A stretch of DNA of 56,863 bases, taken from Planctomycetota bacterium (GTDB taxonomy: Bacteria; Planctomycetota; Planctomycetia; Pirellulales; Pirellulaceae). Under the pieces are notes generated by a model. It was not told the DNA's origin. It saw only the letters and a program-made list of their open reading frames with translations, and made no database searches. Numbering within the stretch: position 1 is the stretch's first letter; every line of letters begins with the position of its first letter. Of the stretch, positions 5,241 to 46,652 are shown piece by piece. The DNA lies in the NCBI GenBank assembly GCA_026692905.1, contig JAPLNL010000028.1, positions 1 through 56,863 of the forward strand, in the 5' to 3' direction. A program made the position numbers and the translations under genes.

Positions 5241-5338
5241 AGCACGACGCGCAAGCTAGTGAATTGGATCGTAATTCACTAGCTTGCGCGTCGTGCTAGG
5301 TATGATCGCAGGATCACTAGCTTGCGCGTCGTGCTACG
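5241..5338. repeat. Dispersed repeat, family C (GACGCGCAAGCTAGTGAA), three copies
   Basis: One forward and two reverse copies of AGCACGACGCGCAAGCTAGT, the first two forming an inverted pair around ATTGGATCGTAA. The same family is found at 11773-11906, 40928-41050 and 46525-46652. This cluster ends about 70 bases before the start of the large helicase-nuclease gene. Confidence 0.9.
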
Positions 5339-5407
5339 GTATGATCGTGCTAGGTATATTGGTACTCGCCGCTCGCCCTAGGAACTGTGCAAGGAAGTGA
5401 TTCTGTT

Positions 5408-8400
5408 ATGGCTACCACCAAAATTCCATTTCGTCAGCGTCGACCGCTCCTCGAGCAATCGCAGTCCATCCAAGTTCATTACCTTGGCTGGAATGGCCCA
5501 ATTCTCCATGCTGCATGCGATTATTTGCAAAAGCAATATACACGCGGCAGCAAATGGGATATGGACCAATGCCTCCTCGTTCTCCCCGGCGGTTTCGCTG
5601 GTCGACGATTGACTCAGCTCATGGCCACCCGTGCCAGCGAACAATCGCTGGTCCTGCGGCCGCCTGAACTGCTGACCATCGGTACCTTGCCGGAAAAACT
5701 CTATACCGCCAAACTCCCATTTGCGAGCGACTTGGAACAAGTGCTGGCGTGGACCAAAGTGCTGCGGGCCGCCGATCATGATCTGCTCATCCCGCTGCTC
5801 TTCGAAGTCCCCGATTCGGCCGAGTTGCGACCTTGGATGGACCTGGCTCGTATCTTGAGCACGCTCCACCGTGAGCTCTCCTCGGACTTGGTCGACTTCG
5901 ATGACGTAGTGCAAGAACTCACCGGCTCACCCGAAGAAGTTCGCTGGAAGGTTCTCTCCAAACTCCAGCGCGCTTACTTGGACGAATTGCATACCGCTGG
6001 CCTTTGGGATGTGCAGTCCGCACGGCGGTTCGCAATCGACAACCAAGAAGTCCGCACGGATCGTGAAATCATCTTGGTGGGTGCCGTCGACTTGAATCGC
6101 GCGCAGCGACGATTTCTTTCCGAAGTTGCCGATAGTGTGCGCGTTCTCATCGGTGCCCCCGAGTCGTACGCAGCCGGCTTCCATCAAGACGGCACGCTTG
6201 CTTCCGAATACTGGCAAGACATCGAAGTGCCGATCGATGAAGAACAACTGCATGTCCGGTCGAGTGCCAACGATGCAGCCAATGAACTCGCAACCCAACT
6301 GGCCAACCTCGGCAACGACTACTCCGTCCAAGACATCACCGTCGGCATCCCTGATCCACAAATTGTACCGGCCCTTCAAGAGACACTTGCACGCGGCGGC
6401 ATCACCCTACGTTATGGCCCGGGCGGTTCGGTCACGCAAACGCCACCGTTGCAAGTGATCGAACGGATCGGCGACTATCTCATCGATGGCTCAATCGATA
6501 TCTTCAGCAGCTTGGTCCGATCACCAGCCATTCATGATTGGCTTATTCGCTCGGCCAAAGATTCGCCAGAAGCCGCAGCGCTTCCAGGTGACTTCCTAGC
6601 TCGCTTGGATGAGTATCAGCAGTCCACTTTACTCCGCAGTGTCAACGTTCCGGAATGGCCGGAAGGCAAAGGGAAAGAGAGTTTCTTGGCTGTCTTGACC
6701 AAGCTGGATGAATGGTTGAAGCCGCTTCGGATGCTCAATGCCAAACTGACGCAGTGGGCCAACCCGCTTCGACAAGTGATCAAGACAATTTACGAAGGGG
6801 TCCAAGTCGATCGGAACGACGTTGCTGGCAATCTATCGCTTCGAGCTTGTGGTGAAATCAATATAGCGTTGTCGAAACTAGCGGAACTGCCGACCAACCT
6901 CGACGCTCAAGTGACCTTTCAAGAGGCGATGGCTTGGTTGCAAAGCCAACTCGAAACGGTCAACGTCCCGCCGCCACAAGATGACTCGGCCGTTGAGATG
7001 TTAGGCTGGCTGGAATTAACCTTGGATGACACTCCGGTCTTGATGTTGACTGGGATGCATGATGGGATTGTTCCAGAGAGTGTCAATGGCGATGCGTTTC
7101 TTCCGAACCAATTGCGTTCCGATTTGGGATTGATGGACAATGCACGTCGTTATGCTCGTGATTGTTATGCGATCTTGGCGATGCTCAACACCCGCGAGCG
7201 AATCGATTTCGTTCTCAATCACTTGAGCCTCGATGGCGATCCGCAGACACCGAGCCGTTTGCTGCTGGCCGTTCCGTCCGATTTGTTGGCTCGCCGAGTG
7301 AAGCTCCTCTTGTCGCCAAAAGAAACGGCCGACGATGCGTTGATTGCCGACGCTTGGGTGCCTCGCGAAACGCAAACCAATATCCCTATCCCGATTCCGG
7401 ATACGAACAAAGTCGTTCGGGACATGGCGGTGACCGATTTCAAAAAGTACGATCAGTGCCCATATCGTTTCTATCTAAACCGGGTCGAAAAAGTCCGAGC
7501 GTTTGAGCACGATCGGCTTGAGCTGGATGGGGGTGGATTTGGCGATCTATTGCACTTGTGCCTCGAGGGTTTAATCGACTCGCCGGTTGCGGCATCCACC
7601 GATGCGCATGCGACGGCCGATTGGTTGACGGAGAACCTGAAAGCGATCGCCAGGAAACGATTTGGAGTGAAGCCGACACCGGCGTTGCAGATCCAAATTG
7701 AGCAAGCGGTTCGTCGTCTCGAAGCGTTTGCAGAACATCAGGCGGCTCAGATCGCAGCCGGATGGCGAATCAAGTACATCGAACACAAAGTCGAAAAGTC
7801 GCACGGCATCACGCTCGAAGTCGACGGCCAATCGATGATCGTTCACGGACGCATCGACCGAATCGATTACCATCCACGCGATGGCCGCTTTGCGGTTTGG
7901 GATTATAAAACAGGTGACCTTGCGGGCAAACCGAAAGAAGCACACTTGAAGCCGAACGGCACTTGGACCGATTGGCAGTTGCCGCTGTATGGCCTTTTGA
8001 TCAAGACCCTCAAGATCGAGGACTTGTCGAAGGTTAGTTTCGGTTACATCCTATTGCCCAAGAACCCGGCCGACACCCAGTTTGTCATTGCTGACTTCCA
8101 ATTGGAACAGCATGCTCAAGCGATCGAGTCGGCTAAAGGGATTGCACGCAAGGTGATGGCTGGAGTGTTCTGGCCGCCGAAGTACAAAGGTATTTCGAAC
8201 TTCGACGAATGCAACGCGATCACGCAGTTGCCGGTCGTGCGACGCTGGGACGAGTCGGTCGCAAAACAAGAGATCGAGTCGGCTCGGCAACGCGAATTGG
8301 CGGCTGCGATTCATCCTGTTCCCGAGCTCCAACTCGATAGCAACGTTGACAACAGCTTAGCGCAAAGCGAAACCGAAAACAAACTTCGCCTGGATCGCTC

Positions 8401-11400
8401 GCATGAGGCGATCTACGAAAAACGCCATTTGAACGCAGAGCGCCCGCCGAACAAGCTGCAATTGGAAAAGCATTTGGCGAAGGGGCAAGCGGACAAGGAT
8501 TGGTTTACTCCGCAAATGATTCTCGCTTCGGCAGGCACCGGCAAGACCTACAATCTGGCTTCGCGTGCCCTGCGATTGCTGTTCACCGACCAAGAGCTCG
8601 ATTCGATTTTGGCGACTACGTTCACGAGAAAAGCGGCGGGCGAAATCCTTCATCGTATTTTGACGTGGCTTGCGGATGGGGTTGAAAACGAAGAGGGTTT
8701 TGCTCGTTTGGTCGGCGTCTTGAAGCCGCTTGAAATCACGCGCGACACCGTTCGGTACCAACTGGGCCGGCTTTGTTCGCATTTGCATCGTTTCCGCGTT
8801 AGCACGCTGGATAGTTTTTATTCGCAACTGGCTCGTTCGTTTGCGCTGGAGCTAAAGCTGCCGCCAGGTTGGACGCTGTCCGATCCATTCCAAACGGACC
8901 AATTGCAACAAGAAGCCATCAGTCGAATGTTCGACACGATGGACCGATCGGCGCTCAAATCGTTGGTGTCGCAATTGTCCAAGGGTGAAGCGACGCGCGG
9001 CATTCGTCGCGAAATTGAAAACGTGGTATCGACCGGCTACGACTTGTTCCGAAAGACGAACGAAGAAGCCTGGAATCAATTGACGGTTCCTAAAGGGCCA
9101 TCGGCAGAGGAGGCTGAATCGGCACTAAGGGTTTTCCGAGGTTCGCAATTGGAGCACAAAAGTTACGCAGGCGCACGCGACAAAGCGGTCGCGAAATTCG
9201 AGTCGGGTGAGTGGGCTGAGTTCCTCGGTCTCACCTTGATTCAAAATGCGGACGCCAAGATCGCGAAGTATTCGTCCAAGGAGTTGCCAGACGAGACGGT
9301 CAAGGCATTGCTGGTCCTGGCAAAGAAGTCGGCCGTCGAAGAGTTGGCCAGCCGAAGAGCTCAGAACGAAGCCGCCTATCGGATGCTTGCTAACTATCAC
9401 GAACAGCTCCAGTTTGTCAAAACCAAACGCCGTATCGTATCTTTTGATGATATCTCAGAGCGGCTCTCCAAGTGGATGCAGGAGACCATTGCCAAGCACA
9501 AAGATGACGACCTTAGGGAGCAGACTTCGACGGCCTTGACGACGAACAAGAAAGAGGACGAAGCGATGAAAGGAATCGCTTATCGTCTCGACTGCCCGAT
9601 CGATCACTTGTTGTTGGACGAGTTTCAAGACACTTCACCGATGCAGTGGAACATCATCAAGCCGTTTGCCGAGGCGATCGTGGAGGGTTCGATAAAGGAC
9701 AAATCGTTCTTTTGCGTGGGGGACAGCAAGCAAGCGATTTACGGTTGGCGCGGCGGTGTTTCCGAAATTTTCGAATCGGTTGGAAAGCAGATCGAGCATG
9801 TTCGGCAAGAGAAGCTGGTCAAGAGTTATCGAAGTTCTCCTGTTGTTATCGAGTTCGTGAACTCGGTCTTTACGCAGCTTGCGAAACACGATCGCTATTA
9901 CAATGACGACGAGTCTGAGATCATCGCCAGTGATACGCAAGCGGTAACCGAATGGATGGGGCGTTATTTTTCCAATCACGAAACATCACGCGATGGATTG
10001 CCTGGCTATGTCGAGTTCCGAAACGCGGACTGCGAGAAGAACAGGGACCAGGACGGTGAAGAAAGCAGCTATGGGCTGTTCGATGAGGTTGCGGATCGTA
10101 TTGCCGAGTTGCACAAGAATTCTCCGCACGTGGAGATCGGCGTCTTAACCCGAACCAATCGCGACGTCGGTCGAATGATCGGCCTGTTGCGAGAACGCGA
10201 GGTTGAGGCCAGCCAGGAAGGTGGAAATCCGTTGGTGGATTCGGCTCCGGTGTTGCTTTTGCTGAGTGCGATGAAGCTGGCCAATCACCCTTCGGATTCG
10301 TTGGCATTTTTTCACGTGGCCCATTCTCCGCTGAGCGATCGGCTGCCTGGCGATGTGACAAAGGATGCCATTGGATTGTCGGCTTTCTTCCGCAAGCAAT
10401 TGGCGGACTTCGGTTTCGGACGAACGCTAGGACTGTTTTCGAACTTGATCGCGAACGAATGCACGGAGCGGGATCAGGATCGACTTAAGCAATTTGTGCA
10501 ATTGGGATATCGATTCGATGCGATGCGAAATCATCACATCAATGACTTCGTGGAATATGTTGAGCGTCAGAAGGTTTCCGTTCCGGGCATGAGCACGGTA
10601 CGAGTCATGACGATTCACCAGTCCAAGGGTTTGGAGTTTGACGCTGTCTTTTTGCCCACCCTCGATCAAACCATTATTTCGCGACCGCCTACCTTTGTGG
10701 CCATGTACGAGGATCGAACGAAGCCGCCGATCGGCGTTTTGCGTTACATGAATCGGGACATGCAGAAGTATTTGGAAGACTCATGGCGGATCGCGTTTCG
10801 AGAGTTTGCGAATCAGCAGTTGTCTGAGGCGTTGTGTGTGTTTTATGTTGCACTCACTCGAGCGCGACACGCTTTGTACCTTTACACGTCGCCGTCATCG
10901 AGTCCGAAGAAGCGTTGGGGATCGGTTCTGCATTCGATCTTTGCCACCCCTGGTCAGAGCGAGCAAGCGGGAATCGTCATTCGCAGTTTCGGAAACGAGA
11001 ACTGGTATGAGTCCATCAAGCCAGCGGATATGGAAGTCGAGCAAGATGAACCAAAAGCGATTGAGCATCGAGTGCGAGGCCGTACTATCCTTTTGAAACG
11101 CGACGCAACCTCGATGCGACGCTTGCCTTGGCTGCGTCCGAGCCAGAGCGTGATGCCAACCGTGGTCGATCTGGCTACGCAGTGGTCGGACGACAATTCA
11201 TCGGGTGCGGTCATTGGTAAATTGGTGCATCGTTGGTTCGAAGAGATTCGCGGTTGGATCGAAGACTACAAGCCGAGCAAAAAGCGGCTCAAGGAGATCG
11301 CTTCTTCGACGCTGACTCAAGAAGAAATGGGGCAGGTCAAGCTGAACGATTGGGTCGACCGCTTCGTGAAGTATTGCGAGATGCCATCGGTATTATTGGC

Positions 11401-11758
11401 GTTAAGTGCAGATCGCTATCGGCCATGGCATCAACCGAGGATGCTCCATTTGGAGGTTACCAATGAGCGACGATTGTTGCAGATTGTGGATGGCCAGATG
11501 TTGCGCGGGGTTATTGACCGCTGCGTCTTGGGCTTCGATGGCGACCGGGTGGTACGGGCCGAGATCTTGGATTTCAAAACGGACCGCAGACCTGATTCGA
11601 TGCCGATTGAGGAGTGGTCCAAAGAGCGCGCAGAGCACCACGGCATACAGCTGCAGTACTATCGTCGTGTTTTGTCAGACCAATTCGGGCTACATCCGAA
11701 TGACATCGAGCTGACGTTGCTTTTGTTGAGTGAAGATTTGCAAGTTGCGATTCAGTAG
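5408..11758 (+). CDS. Single-chain AddB-AddA helicase/double nuclease
   Basis: 2116 residues when started at ATG 5408, chosen because AAGGAAG lies about 10 bases upstream; an upstream GTG at 5387 would add seven residues. The N-terminal half is AddB/RexB-like: an AddB-type hydrophobic core without a Walker A lysine, a RecC/AddB-like GMHDGIVPESVNGDAFLP segment, and a PD-(D/E)XK nuclease with RIDRID and WDYKTG (831-836) plus a Q-x-x-x-Y. After a polar linker (about 950-1030) the second half is a superfamily 1 helicase: Walker A ASAGTGKT (1040-1047), Walker B DEFQD (1404-1408), GDSKQAIYGWRGG, KSYRSS, MTIHQSKGLEFD and VALTRARHALY. A second nuclease follows: GVIDR, then ILDFKTD (2053-2059), then QLQYY. 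AddA and AddB are normally separate subunits that resect double-strand breaks for RecA; here both are one polypeptide in addB-addA order. The usual AddB iron-sulfur cysteines appear absent. Very probably functional: every motif is intact. Confidence 0.9.
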   Translation: MATTKIPFRQRRPLLEQSQSIQVHYLGWNGPILHAACDYLQKQYTRGSKWDMDQCLLVLPGGFAGRRLTQLMATRASEQSLVLRPPELLTIGTLPEKLYTAKLPFASDLEQVLAWTKVLRAADHDLLIPLLFEVPDSAELRPWMDLARILSTLHRELSSDLVDFDDVVQELTGSPEEVRWKVLSKLQRAYLDELHTAGLWDVQSARRFAIDNQEVRTDREIILVGAVDLNRAQRRFLSEVADSVRVLIGAPESYAAGFHQDGTLASEYWQDIEVPIDEEQLHVRSSANDAANELATQLANLGNDYSVQDITVGIPDPQIVPALQETLARGGITLRYGPGGSVTQTPPLQVIERIGDYLIDGSIDIFSSLVRSPAIHDWLIRSAKDSPEAAALPGDFLARLDEYQQSTLLRSVNVPEWPEGKGKESFLAVLTKLDEWLKPLRMLNAKLTQWANPLRQVIKTIYEGVQVDRNDVAGNLSLRACGEINIALSKLAELPTNLDAQVTFQEAMAWLQSQLETVNVPPPQDDSAVEMLGWLELTLDDTPVLMLTGMHDGIVPESVNGDAFLPNQLRSDLGLMDNARRYARDCYAILAMLNTRERIDFVLNHLSLDGDPQTPSRLLLAVPSDLLARRVKLLLSPKETADDALIADAWVPRETQTNIPIPIPDTNKVVRDMAVTDFKKYDQCPYRFYLNRVEKVRAFEHDRLELDGGGFGDLLHLCLEGLIDSPVAASTDAHATADWLTENLKAIARKRFGVKPTPALQIQIEQAVRRLEAFAEHQAAQIAAGWRIKYIEHKVEKSHGITLEVDGQSMIVHGRIDRIDYHPRDGRFAVWDYKTGDLAGKPKEAHLKPNGTWTDWQLPLYGLLIKTLKIEDLSKVSFGYILLPKNPADTQFVIADFQLEQHAQAIESAKGIARKVMAGVFWPPKYKGISNFDECNAITQLPVVRRWDESVAKQEIESARQRELAAAIHPVPELQLDSNVDNSLAQSETENKLRLDRSHEAIYEKRHLNAERPPNKLQLEKHLAKGQADKDWFTPQMILASAGTGKTYNLASRALRLLFTDQELDSILATTFTRKAAGEILHRILTWLADGVENEEGFARLVGVLKPLEITRDTVRYQLGRLCSHLHRFRVSTLDSFYSQLARSFALELKLPPGWTLSDPFQTDQLQQEAISRMFDTMDRSALKSLVSQLSKGEATRGIRREIENVVSTGYDLFRKTNEEAWNQLTVPKGPSAEEAESALRVFRGSQLEHKSYAGARDKAVAKFESGEWAEFLGLTLIQNADAKIAKYSSKELPDETVKALLVLAKKSAVEELASRRAQNEAAYRMLANYHEQLQFVKTKRRIVSFDDISERLSKWMQETIAKHKDDDLREQTSTALTTNKKEDEAMKGIAYRLDCPIDHLLLDEFQDTSPMQWNIIKPFAEAIVEGSIKDKSFFCVGDSKQAIYGWRGGVSEIFESVGKQIEHVRQEKLVKSYRSSPVVIEFVNSVFTQLAKHDRYYNDDESEIIASDTQAVTEWMGRYFSNHETSRDGLPGYVEFRNADCEKNRDQDGEESSYGLFDEVADRIAELHKNSPHVEIGVLTRTNRDVGRMIGLLREREVEASQEGGNPLVDSAPVLLLLSAMKLANHPSDSLAFFHVAHSPLSDRLPGDVTKDAIGLSAFFRKQLADFGFGRTLGLFSNLIANECTERDQDRLKQFVQLGYRFDAMRNHHINDFVEYVERQKVSVPGMSTVRVMTIHQSKGLEFDAVFLPTLDQTIISRPPTFVAMYEDRTKPPIGVLRYMNRDMQKYLEDSWRIAFREFANQQLSEALCVFYVALTRARHALYLYTSPSSSPKKRWGSVLHSIFATPGQSEQAGIVIRSFGNENWYESIKPADMEVEQDEPKAIEHRVRGRTILLKRDATSMRRLPWLRPSQSVMPTVVDLATQWSDDNSSGAVIGKLVHRWFEEIRGWIEDYKPSKKRLKEIASSTLTQEEMGQVKLNDWVDRFVKYCEMPSVLLALSADRYRPWHQPRMLHLEVTNERRLLQIVDGQMLRGVIDRCVLGFDGDRVVRAEILDFKTDRRPDSMPIEEWSKERAEHHGIQLQYYRRVLSDQFGLHPNDIELTLLLLSEDLQVAIQ

Positions 11759-11772
11759 GGATGCCCAAGGAT

Positions 11773-11906
11773 CAAGCTAGTGAATCCTTAGCACGACGCG
11801 CAAGCTAGTGAATCCTTTGCACGACGCGCAAGCTAGTGAATCCTTTGCACGACGCGCAAGCTAGTGAAAACCACTATCCAATTCACTAGCTTGCGCGTCG
11901 TGCTAG
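11773..11906. repeat. Dispersed repeat, family C, four copies
   Basis: One partial and three full direct copies of GCACGACGCGCAAGCTAGTG in a near-tandem array of period about 28 bases, closed by one reverse copy (about 11881-11906). It starts 15 bases after the helicase-nuclease stop, so that gene is bracketed by family C on both sides. Confidence 0.9.
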
Positions 11907-13367: not shown

Positions 13368-16013
13368 ATGGCGAATGATCCGAATGAACCGAATGACAAA
13401 GGCAGACCGCGCCCGATTGCAACGCGTACCTTTTCGTTGGACGATTCAGAACGATTGGGCCAAATCGCCGATAACAGCGAATCGGACTTCGACGTCGCGG
13501 AGGAGTTTGTAGACAACGCGACGTCACTCCAAAATTCGCCGCTGTCTCTTCCCATTTTGGGCGAATACCAGATCGAGGAGTTGATCGGCGCAGGGGGAAT
13601 GGGGCAAGTGTTTCGGGCACGGCACCGAACGATGGACAGGCAGGTCGCTATCAAGATACTGCCGCGGTCCGTATCCGACGATGAGCATGCGGTCGAACGT
13701 TTTTATACGGAGGTGCGAGCCACTGCCCGTTTGATGCATCCGAACATCGTGACTGCTTTTGATGCCGGTTGCCATCGTTCGGGCGAAAAGCCCATCCACT
13801 ATCTCGTGATGGAGCTCATTGAGGGTGAGCTTCTGTCGCAACGGATCGCTCAATCCGGTCCGATGAACGCGAACGAAGTCGTCGAGATCCTCAAACAGTC
13901 AGCCTCGGCTTTGGCTTATGCGCATGCTCAAGGCATTGTGCATCGCGACATCAAGCCTAGCAACATGATGATTACTCCCTCCGGGGTTTTGAAGATTTTG
14001 GATTTCGGTCTGGCAGTACTTCGCGGGCATTTGGATAAGAAAGGGGCCAAGGAAACGCACCTGGTTGGAACCGTCGAGTTCATGTCACCCGAACAAATCA
14101 ATGCACCGGACACTGTAGACAACCGCAGTGATCTTTACTCTCTCGGGGCAACGATTTTTTATCTCCTGACGGGGCGTCCGATGTTTCAGGGAGAGATGGT
14201 GCAAACCGCGCTCGCCCAGGTCAACACGCGACCTCAAGCGTTGTACGAAGTTCGTAGCGATGTCGACATTCGACTCGATTCCGTTTTCCAGTCGCTTGTG
14301 GCTAAGTCGCCTGTAGCGCGATGTCAATCTGCAAGCGAACTTATGGAAAAATTGATTTCCATGAATCTGATCGAGCGGCCCACGACACAAAGTCCGGTTC
14401 GCGGCCCTGAGAGCCGGTTGCCCAAAATGGGTTACGAGTATCCAACCAGCGTAGGGCAAGGAAAGTCGACATCGCAACGCGCGTTCGCATCCATTGGGAT
14501 TGAACTGGGAATGATTCACTCTCGAGTGAGCTACGTCGATGCCGCGCACAAGGTGGAAGAAGTCTTAGTGGACCGCGATTCGACCAAGCTTCGCAATATG
14601 TTGTTAAGTGATGGCGATACGATTGCGATCGGCGAGAGCGCCGTTGAAAATCGGGCCGCGAAACCAAACCAAATTTTCTACGGCATGCAACGTTGGTACG
14701 GACTGCCGTTGCTCGAACGTACGTTTGGTGGTCGGCAGGTACCGCCTGAAGTGTTAGTGGCCTGCATCATCCGTCAGCTATTGGTGGGTGCACGTCACCA
14801 GTTGCCCAATGCCTCGCATGCGGTAGTTACAGTTCCCGCGTGCTATGACCAGATGCACAGGCTCAGCACAAAGACCGCATGTGCGATTGCCGGGGTCGAG
14901 GTGTTACAATTGCTCGATAAACCGTTGGCAGCGACGCTTGCTCATGTTGAAATTGAAACGCGGTTAGCGCAGGCTGCGGGGACTTCCAATACGTATAAAA
15001 AGACATTCTTGGTAGCGATGCTCAACGGAACGGCATGTGAAGTCTCGGTTGTATCCGTGGAGGGATTGGCTGTCCGATTGCTTAGCTCGGTCGGTGATTG
15101 CAAACGGGGTACAACGCGATGGCACGATGTGGCTACGAAGCGACTGGCAACGGAGGTCGAGACGAAATTGGGAGCCAGCGCTCGCGATGATTTAAACGTT
15201 GCATCGCGTTTGCAACGCACGATGGAGAAAGCATTTGATCGATTGCGGATTAGTCCAAACGTTCCGTTTGTCTTCGAGTCCTCTGCGGGCAAGATTGAAC
15301 GCATTTTGGATCGAGAGCGATTGGGAGAGTGGGTTGGCGATTTAGAAAACGATTGCGGGTCGTTCGCCAAGGAAGCGATCGAACGCTCGAAAGTGGATCC
15401 AGCGGAGATCGACGCGATTCTGCTCGTTGGCGATGCGCGTTGGATGCCTGTCATTCATCGGCAATTGAGCCGTCTGACCGGTCCGCAGGCAAAGTTGACC
15501 ATGCTGAAATCCAACGATATGGCTCGGGGGGCTGCCATTCAAGCCAAGAACATCATGCCGCCGATGGATCCGAATTCGCCTGTCGCGCGGGCGGTCTCGA
15601 GCTACGATCTTGGAGTGATCATTCAAGAAGATGTGAGCCGAATTAGTCAGCCCAAGGTTCTTATCGGCAAAGATACGCCGACCCCTGCGCTGAGCACACG
15701 CACCTTGCGATTTACGAACGATGGCAGGGAGCAGCCTCAGCTTCAGTTTGTCGAAGGCTCGAGGCTGGGTGCGAGCACGTGGAATCGATTGGGAAAGATC
15801 GATTTGAAGACATGTTTTCCAGGTCGGTCGGTTTCGGATCCGTTGCAATTGAGGATTGATATCGACACGAGCGGTATCTGGACGGGGTCTTTGATTTGGC
15901 TTGCGGGAAACAAGCAGTTAGCTATCCCAGCGTTGATAGACCCGTTGATGGATGTTGTGTCTACCAAACGTTGGAGAGATTGGCTCGAGTCGCTTATGCT
16001 ATGCAATGGGTAG
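13368..16013 (+). CDS. Serine/threonine kinase fused to degenerate Hsp70
   Basis: 881 residues. Residues about 68-340 are a Hanks-type kinase with all key residues: glycine loop GAGGMG (74-79), Lys96 in VAIKIL, catalytic HRDIKPSN (192-199), DFG (Asp212) and an SPE in MSPEQ. No transmembrane helix is evident after the kinase. Residues about 372-720 resemble the Hsp70/DnaK ATPase domain: VVTVPACYD with KTACAIAGVEVLQLLDKPLAATLA matches DnaK's VPAYF and IAGLEV..NEPTAAALA region. The first phosphate loop reads GIELGMI instead of GIDLGTT, and the second DLGGGTFD loop has become MLNGTACE, so ATP hydrolysis is doubtful. Residues about 765-860 resemble the Hsp70 substrate-binding sandwich (LIGKDTPTPA, LGKIDL). 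Likely a kinase whose Hsp70-like tail binds clients or regulators. It follows the transglutaminase gene closely. Confidence 0.88.
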   Translation: MANDPNEPNDKGRPRPIATRTFSLDDSERLGQIADNSESDFDVAEEFVDNATSLQNSPLSLPILGEYQIEELIGAGGMGQVFRARHRTMDRQVAIKILPRSVSDDEHAVERFYTEVRATARLMHPNIVTAFDAGCHRSGEKPIHYLVMELIEGELLSQRIAQSGPMNANEVVEILKQSASALAYAHAQGIVHRDIKPSNMMITPSGVLKILDFGLAVLRGHLDKKGAKETHLVGTVEFMSPEQINAPDTVDNRSDLYSLGATIFYLLTGRPMFQGEMVQTALAQVNTRPQALYEVRSDVDIRLDSVFQSLVAKSPVARCQSASELMEKLISMNLIERPTTQSPVRGPESRLPKMGYEYPTSVGQGKSTSQRAFASIGIELGMIHSRVSYVDAAHKVEEVLVDRDSTKLRNMLLSDGDTIAIGESAVENRAAKPNQIFYGMQRWYGLPLLERTFGGRQVPPEVLVACIIRQLLVGARHQLPNASHAVVTVPACYDQMHRLSTKTACAIAGVEVLQLLDKPLAATLAHVEIETRLAQAAGTSNTYKKTFLVAMLNGTACEVSVVSVEGLAVRLLSSVGDCKRGTTRWHDVATKRLATEVETKLGASARDDLNVASRLQRTMEKAFDRLRISPNVPFVFESSAGKIERILDRERLGEWVGDLENDCGSFAKEAIERSKVDPAEIDAILLVGDARWMPVIHRQLSRLTGPQAKLTMLKSNDMARGAAIQAKNIMPPMDPNSPVARAVSSYDLGVIIQEDVSRISQPKVLIGKDTPTPALSTRTLRFTNDGREQPQLQFVEGSRLGASTWNRLGKIDLKTCFPGRSVSDPLQLRIDIDTSGIWTGSLIWLAGNKQLAIPALIDPLMDVVSTKRWRDWLESLMLCNG

Positions 16014-40927: not shown

Positions 40928-41050
40928 TCGACGCGCAAGCTAGCGAATGTTAGCACGACGCGCAAGCTAGTGAATCTTAGCACTATCGAATCTTAGCACG
41001 ACGCGCAAGCTAGTGAATTTGCTATCCAGTTCACTAACTTGCGTGTCCTA
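40928..41050. repeat. Dispersed repeat, family C, four copies
   Basis: Three forward copies of GACGCGCAAGCTAGTGAA (one with a base change) and one diverged reverse copy (TTCACTAACTTGCGTG), between the convergent fliK and the unknown leftward gene. Confidence 0.88.
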
Positions 41051-46524: not shown

Positions 46525-46652
46525 TCCAAAATACCTAGCACGACGCGCAAGCTAGTGAATTGGATAGTAGATTCACTAGCTCCAAAATACCTAGCACGAC
46601 GCGCAAGCTAGTGAATTGGATAGTAGATTCACTAGCTTGCGCGTCGTGCTAA
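46525..46652. repeat. Dispersed repeat, family C, with a 56-bp tandem duplication
   Basis: A 56-bp unit starting TCCAAAATACCTAGCACGAC appears twice (46525-46580, 46581-46636), each with one family C core and part of its reverse partner; a complete reverse copy closes the array at 46652. It lies upstream of both MIOX (leftward) and the MFS gene (rightward). Confidence 0.9.

Follow-up and report, generated by a model that had tools for sequence, protein, structure and literature searches.

Can the two subunits of the AddAB helicase-nuclease exist in nature as one polypeptide, and if so, how did they come to be joined? The question is raised by a contig from a Planctomycetota bacterium of the family Pirellulaceae (JAPLNL010000028.1, assembly GCA_026692905.1), analyzed here as a stretch of 56,863 nucleotides (the window). 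Positions 5408-11758 of its forward strand are a single open reading frame, free of stops and running for 2116 codons from an ATG at 5408. A sequence-only reading had described this frame as AddB and AddA fused, with AddB features first, in the order of addB-addA operons, and with two complete nucleases around a superfamily 1 (SF1) helicase, and had pointed to a planctomycete. All of this was borne out, including the uninterrupted frame and the exact positions of the two nuclease motifs (Table 1), and the case for a fusion is even stronger than was stated there. Judging from the sequence and from structure models, the protein is very probably a natural single-chain AddAB, with AddB and AddA modules joined by a linker in one frame, one Walker A motif, and two nucleases that keep their motif residues. 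The kind of enzyme is known; what is new is the variant. A GTG at 5387 offers an alternative start, giving 2123 residues, but the ATG is favored because the alignments of the closest relatives begin there.

The first half is, by sequence and model, an AddB, combining a helicase-like fold with a nuclease whose active site is intact. AlphaFold2 modeled residues 1-961 with a pLDDT (predicted local distance difference test) of 88.8, and AddB chains were the top matches in PDB to the modeled half, so the AddB-like fold on which the sequence-only reading had staked its case for residues 1-950 is present there. That reading can be refined: residues ~20-640 form a helicase-like fold without Walker A, a motif that a scan found nowhere in residues 1-950. 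In the nuclease, H716, D817, D832, K834, Q857, and Y861 are invariant in 49 aligned AddB sequences. The NCBIfam model addB_alphas matches residues 425-877, well under its curated cut-off.

The second half is likewise predicted to be an AddA: an SF1 helicase carrying Walker A and both the N- and the C-terminal UvrD domains, followed by a C-terminal PD-(D/E)XK nuclease. Its fold matches AddA and RecB chains along the entire length. ASAGTGKT at residue 1040 is the sole Walker A that the motif scan found in all 2116 residues, as befits a single ATP motor. Among 48 aligned AddA sequences, nuclease residues H1941, D2037, D2055, K2057, Q2081, and Y2085 show at least 90% conservation, near-full-length rows having been chosen for this alignment, so that nuclease-less AddA was excluded beforehand. 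Pfam, which had been suggested as a check, matched PDDEXK_1, UvrD-helicase, and UvrD_C and gave no match to the C-terminal nuclease. NCBIfam matched the second half with RecB/AddA-like models, well under their curated cut-offs, and did not recognize either half as an equivalog of addA or addB (210/861 and 84/486 bits, respectively, against alphaproteobacterial models).

Table 1. Features of the fused addB-addA gene (positions in the window)
Feature	Position	Strand	Basis
Fused addB-addA gene, 2116 residues	5408..11758	+	Open reading frame and relatives
AddB module, residues ~20-940, predicted helicase-like fold (no Walker A) and nuclease	5465..8227	+	AlphaFold2, PDB matches, Walker A scan
AddB PD-(D/E)XK nuclease (PDDEXK_1), residues 674-924	7427..8179	+	Pfam match
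WDYKTG motif of AddB nuclease, residues 831-836	7898..7915	+	Translation
Linker, residues ~941-1033, hypervariable	8228..8506	+	Alignments, structure models
AddA helicase N-terminal region (UvrD-helicase), residues 1034-1461	8507..9790	+	Pfam
Walker A ASAGTGKT, residues 1040-1047	8525..8548	+	Motif scan
AddA helicase C-terminal region (UvrD_C), residues 1690-1827	10475..10888	+	Pfam
AddA C-terminal PD-(D/E)XK nuclease	11195..11737	+	Motif conservation and fold; no Pfam match
ILDFKTD motif of AddA nuclease, residues 2053-2059	11564..11584	+	Translation

With AddAB (RexAB; structures of the 3U44/4CEH family; TIGR02786 for AddB, TIGR02784 for AddA), the fused protein shares the module order of addB-addA operons, the folds of both halves, one Walker A, and two PD-(D/E)XK nucleases. 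It differs in being one polypeptide instead of two, with ~50-115 residues between the cores, in having no Walker A in the AddB half, in being 10-20% identical to the solved chains, and in lacking the iron-sulfur (Fe-S) cysteine set of Bacillus subtilis AddB, C684 being the only conserved cysteine in the AddB nuclease region of 24 aligned fused proteins. B. subtilis AddB has Fe-S cluster cysteines, but to our knowledge these are not general across the AddB family. AdnAB, an enzyme of two chains and two motor folds, also has two nucleases and helicase-like folds in both halves, but its motor motif occurs in both, whereas the fused protein has one Walker A, outside residues 1-950. In fold, the AddA half resembles RecB and the AddB half RecC; however, RecBCD has a nuclease-less RecC-like subunit, while here the nuclease of the first half keeps its motif residues invariant in 49 rows, and there is one chain. 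DNA2 and the bacterial Bad helicase-nucleases do combine a nuclease and an SF1 helicase in a single chain, but they have only one nuclease and no second helicase-like module.

Might the fusion be an artefact of assembly or sequencing that joined two genes? The window comes from a draft assembly, 96% complete, of 5.96 Mb in 148 contigs. In G962 (L220), a genome of another order, AddB and AddA also seemed to share one open stretch, but the junction proved to read N, and this genome was dropped as an independent fusion. The fusion nonetheless spans one genus (g1) and two related genera (g321 and g288) of Pirellula-type planctomycetes. AddB and AddA lie in one frame across the junction in 26 of the 27 g1 genomes (G534 stops at a contig edge), in both genomes of g321, and in 12 of 15 genomes of g288, where the AddA frame meets a contig end in G750, G754, and G757. 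The single-contig genomes G490 and G749 carry it, and no N was found in the 40 fused loci scanned. An artefact is practically refuted because the fusion is conserved so widely.

Beyond these genera we found no further fusion, within surveys confined to the window organism's own phylum. When the AddA half was used to search 149 genomes of the family, 143 matched, and among the 137 listed, 15 were fused: all 7 of the g1 genomes in this draw, 2 from g321, and 6 from g288 (G461 and G483, split across contigs, were judged by separate examination of their loci). No other AddA frame above 1,349 residues occurred among the family matches listed. Draws from the order (246 genomes, 105 matched), class (347, 96), and phylum (392, 123), which overlap, gave no further fusions among the matches listed, only a few AddA frames of 1,360-1,440 residues in the order, too short to hold both proteins. 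Long AddA frames in G329 and G608 are overlapping frames, not fusions. Among named records, the best 80 of 576 loci comprised 4 fused (L122-L125, two titled Pirellula sp. and two Planctomycetota bacterium), 63 with adjacent separate genes, and 13 with AddA only. Other arrangements were seen as well: the complete genome G167 has its addB and addA matches ~260 kb apart on one contig, and in G455, G435, G400, G407, G506, G486, and G447 they lie on different contigs, which may reflect real separation or contig breaks. Going by titles and the starts of abstracts among the papers listed from an open-access PMC library, we found no description of a fused AddAB, and the words "fusion" and "fused" do not occur in the available portions of the main text of PMC1193525 and PMC6452273.

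A fused gene need not yield a fused enzyme, since translation might begin anew within the linker or the exposed linker might be cleaved afterward. The linker is long and hypervariable, with low model confidence at both modeled ends (941-961, 1013-1019, and 1025-1028; residues 962-1012 lie outside the models), and would therefore be within reach of proteases; moreover, in 8 of 40 genomes examined, it contains a GTG or TTG with GGAG, GAGG, or AGGA upstream. However, no in-frame linker ATG has such an upstream sequence in the same 40 genomes, and the linker in the window has no ATG before M1037 (inside the AddA core), nor a GTG or TTG so preceded. Linkers vary strongly in length and sequence, yet they are stop-free and in frame in 40 of 40 genomes, and this keeping of frame across many lengths argues against an enzyme that works as two chains, which we consider unlikely. 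Less likely still is a change of role, in which the single-chain protein would no longer serve Chi-regulated recombination but, for example, defense or plain DNA degradation. Its sequence is remote from that of the AddAB enzymes that have been studied, and GajB models make up 24 of the 25 PADLOC matches listed, but these are confined to the shared UvrD helicase core, and a defense role was rejected on that account. Furthermore, its unfused relatives are adjacent addB-addA pairs, and no other AddAB/RecB-like enzyme was found in its genome. Within the assembly, PDDEXK_1 matches the fused gene alone, and UvrD-helicase matches it and one other frame, of 754 residues, whose helicase domain has PcrA as its best-scoring model. 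The search thus turned up no stand-alone addA, addB, or recB, and so not the separate addA and addB that the sequence-only reading had named as evidence against itself; no search for recD was made.

How, then, did the genes become joined? Loss of a stop codon had been proposed as a simple origin, but it was rejected in view of the named unfused loci: of 63, 56 have addA in the -1 frame relative to addB and 6 have it in the +1 frame, leaving a single same-frame locus. In 47 of the 63, a possible addA start overlaps the addB stop in four nucleotides (ATGA, GTGA, or TTGA), the addA starts being chosen mechanically for this count. In G415, which of the unfused relatives lies closest in the tree, addA is out of frame with a spacer, and in the same-frame cases examined, G437 and G571, the genes are separate, addA having its own start downstream of the addB stop. 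Since addA is out of frame in most unfused loci, joining the genes took a shift of frame as well as added linker residues, and the start/stop overlaps make the ancestral state look translationally coupled. In trees of concatenated AddB and AddA (56 rows and 27 rows), all fused proteins fall in one well-supported group, which includes the unfused G415, and this implies two changes of state. A single clade of fusions was rejected: in the 27-row analysis, forcing the fused rows into one clade cost 18 log units even in the best such tree found (p-AU 0.006, approximately unbiased test), a constraint tested after the first tree had been seen. The rooting of the 56-row tree is not to be trusted, because the sequences chosen as outgroup did not group with one another. 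The linkers of g1 and g321 share WF and M-I/L ahead of ASAG, before the Walker A strand, while those of g288 do not. We prefer two independent fusions to one, though a single fusion that was later undone in G415, the only sampled genome of its genus, takes the same number of changes (two) and may be the true history instead. That resection became an obligate single-chain machine twice, in g288 and in g1 with g321, each time with an unrelated tether replacing a pair coupled by overlapping start and stop, we put at somewhat below an even chance.

All catalytic parts of AddAB are kept in the fused protein. In AddAB, a 1:1 heterodimer, AddA is a 3'-5' SF1 motor whose nuclease cuts the 3'-ended strand, while AddB reads Chi and its nuclease cuts the 5'-ended strand. 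By analogy, the AddA module would unwind DNA from a break, each nuclease would cut its respective strand, AddB would use its dead-helicase part to scan for a Chi-like site, and RecA would be left with a 3' single strand. The tether appears to be of sufficient length to let the modules dock normally in cis, presumably as the usual 1:1 complex, and ordinary AddAB action, with an obligate 1:1 stoichiometry, is therefore expected. That fusion fixes stoichiometry, as the sequence-only reading held, is a fair inference, although the two-chain enzyme is already 1:1; an effect of the tether on Chi control is speculation.

The C-terminal nuclease of AddA itself seems, going by the lengths of frames, to have been lost in several lineages of Pirellulaceae. 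Several unfused loci (including records of Rhodopirellula, Rubripirellula, and Roseiconus) have AddA frames of ~850-980 residues, which end after the helicase and match the window protein only to residue ~1840-1890 (L226, L227, L228, L135, L141, L143, L147, L151, L152, L156, and L171). G413 (g288; L089/L229) is fused, yet ends before the nuclease, with no nuclease match in the 4.4 kb sequenced downstream; nor was one found downstream of AddA in L226-L229. Pfam is useless for judging such losses, because it misses the intact nuclease too. In another fused protein (L083, from G493), Walker A reads GTGTT in place of GTGKT, which may reflect either an error in sequencing or a motor that is dead.

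Around the gene in the window, a repeat resembling REPs (repetitive extragenic palindromes), with core GCACGACGCGCAAGCTAGTGAAT, lies on either side, in both direct and inverted orientation. It occurs 12 times at up to 3 mismatches, against 0 expected from shuffles (5242-5334, 11791-11903, 40953-41018, and 46538-46649). Farther on, 13368-16013 (+) encodes an 881-residue protein in which residues 67-342 are a protein kinase domain and residues 445-839 an Hsp70 domain.

AddAB has been studied as a heterodimer. A form that nature has joined covalently, in which linkers may be short or long and for which unfused sisters exist, is a ready comparison set for asking whether unwinding, Chi capture, or recycling requires the subunits to part or to shift away from each other. 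The fused enzyme also provides a practical single-chain scaffold for single-molecule work. For the organisms themselves, the finding suggests a resection complex shifting from translational to covalent coupling, the tether taking over, as it may have done, from the start/stop coupling of the ancestral addB-addA operon. Two independent fusions, if true, would point to selection for AddB and AddA joined in cis, and the tether could then alter the switching of both nucleases at Chi.
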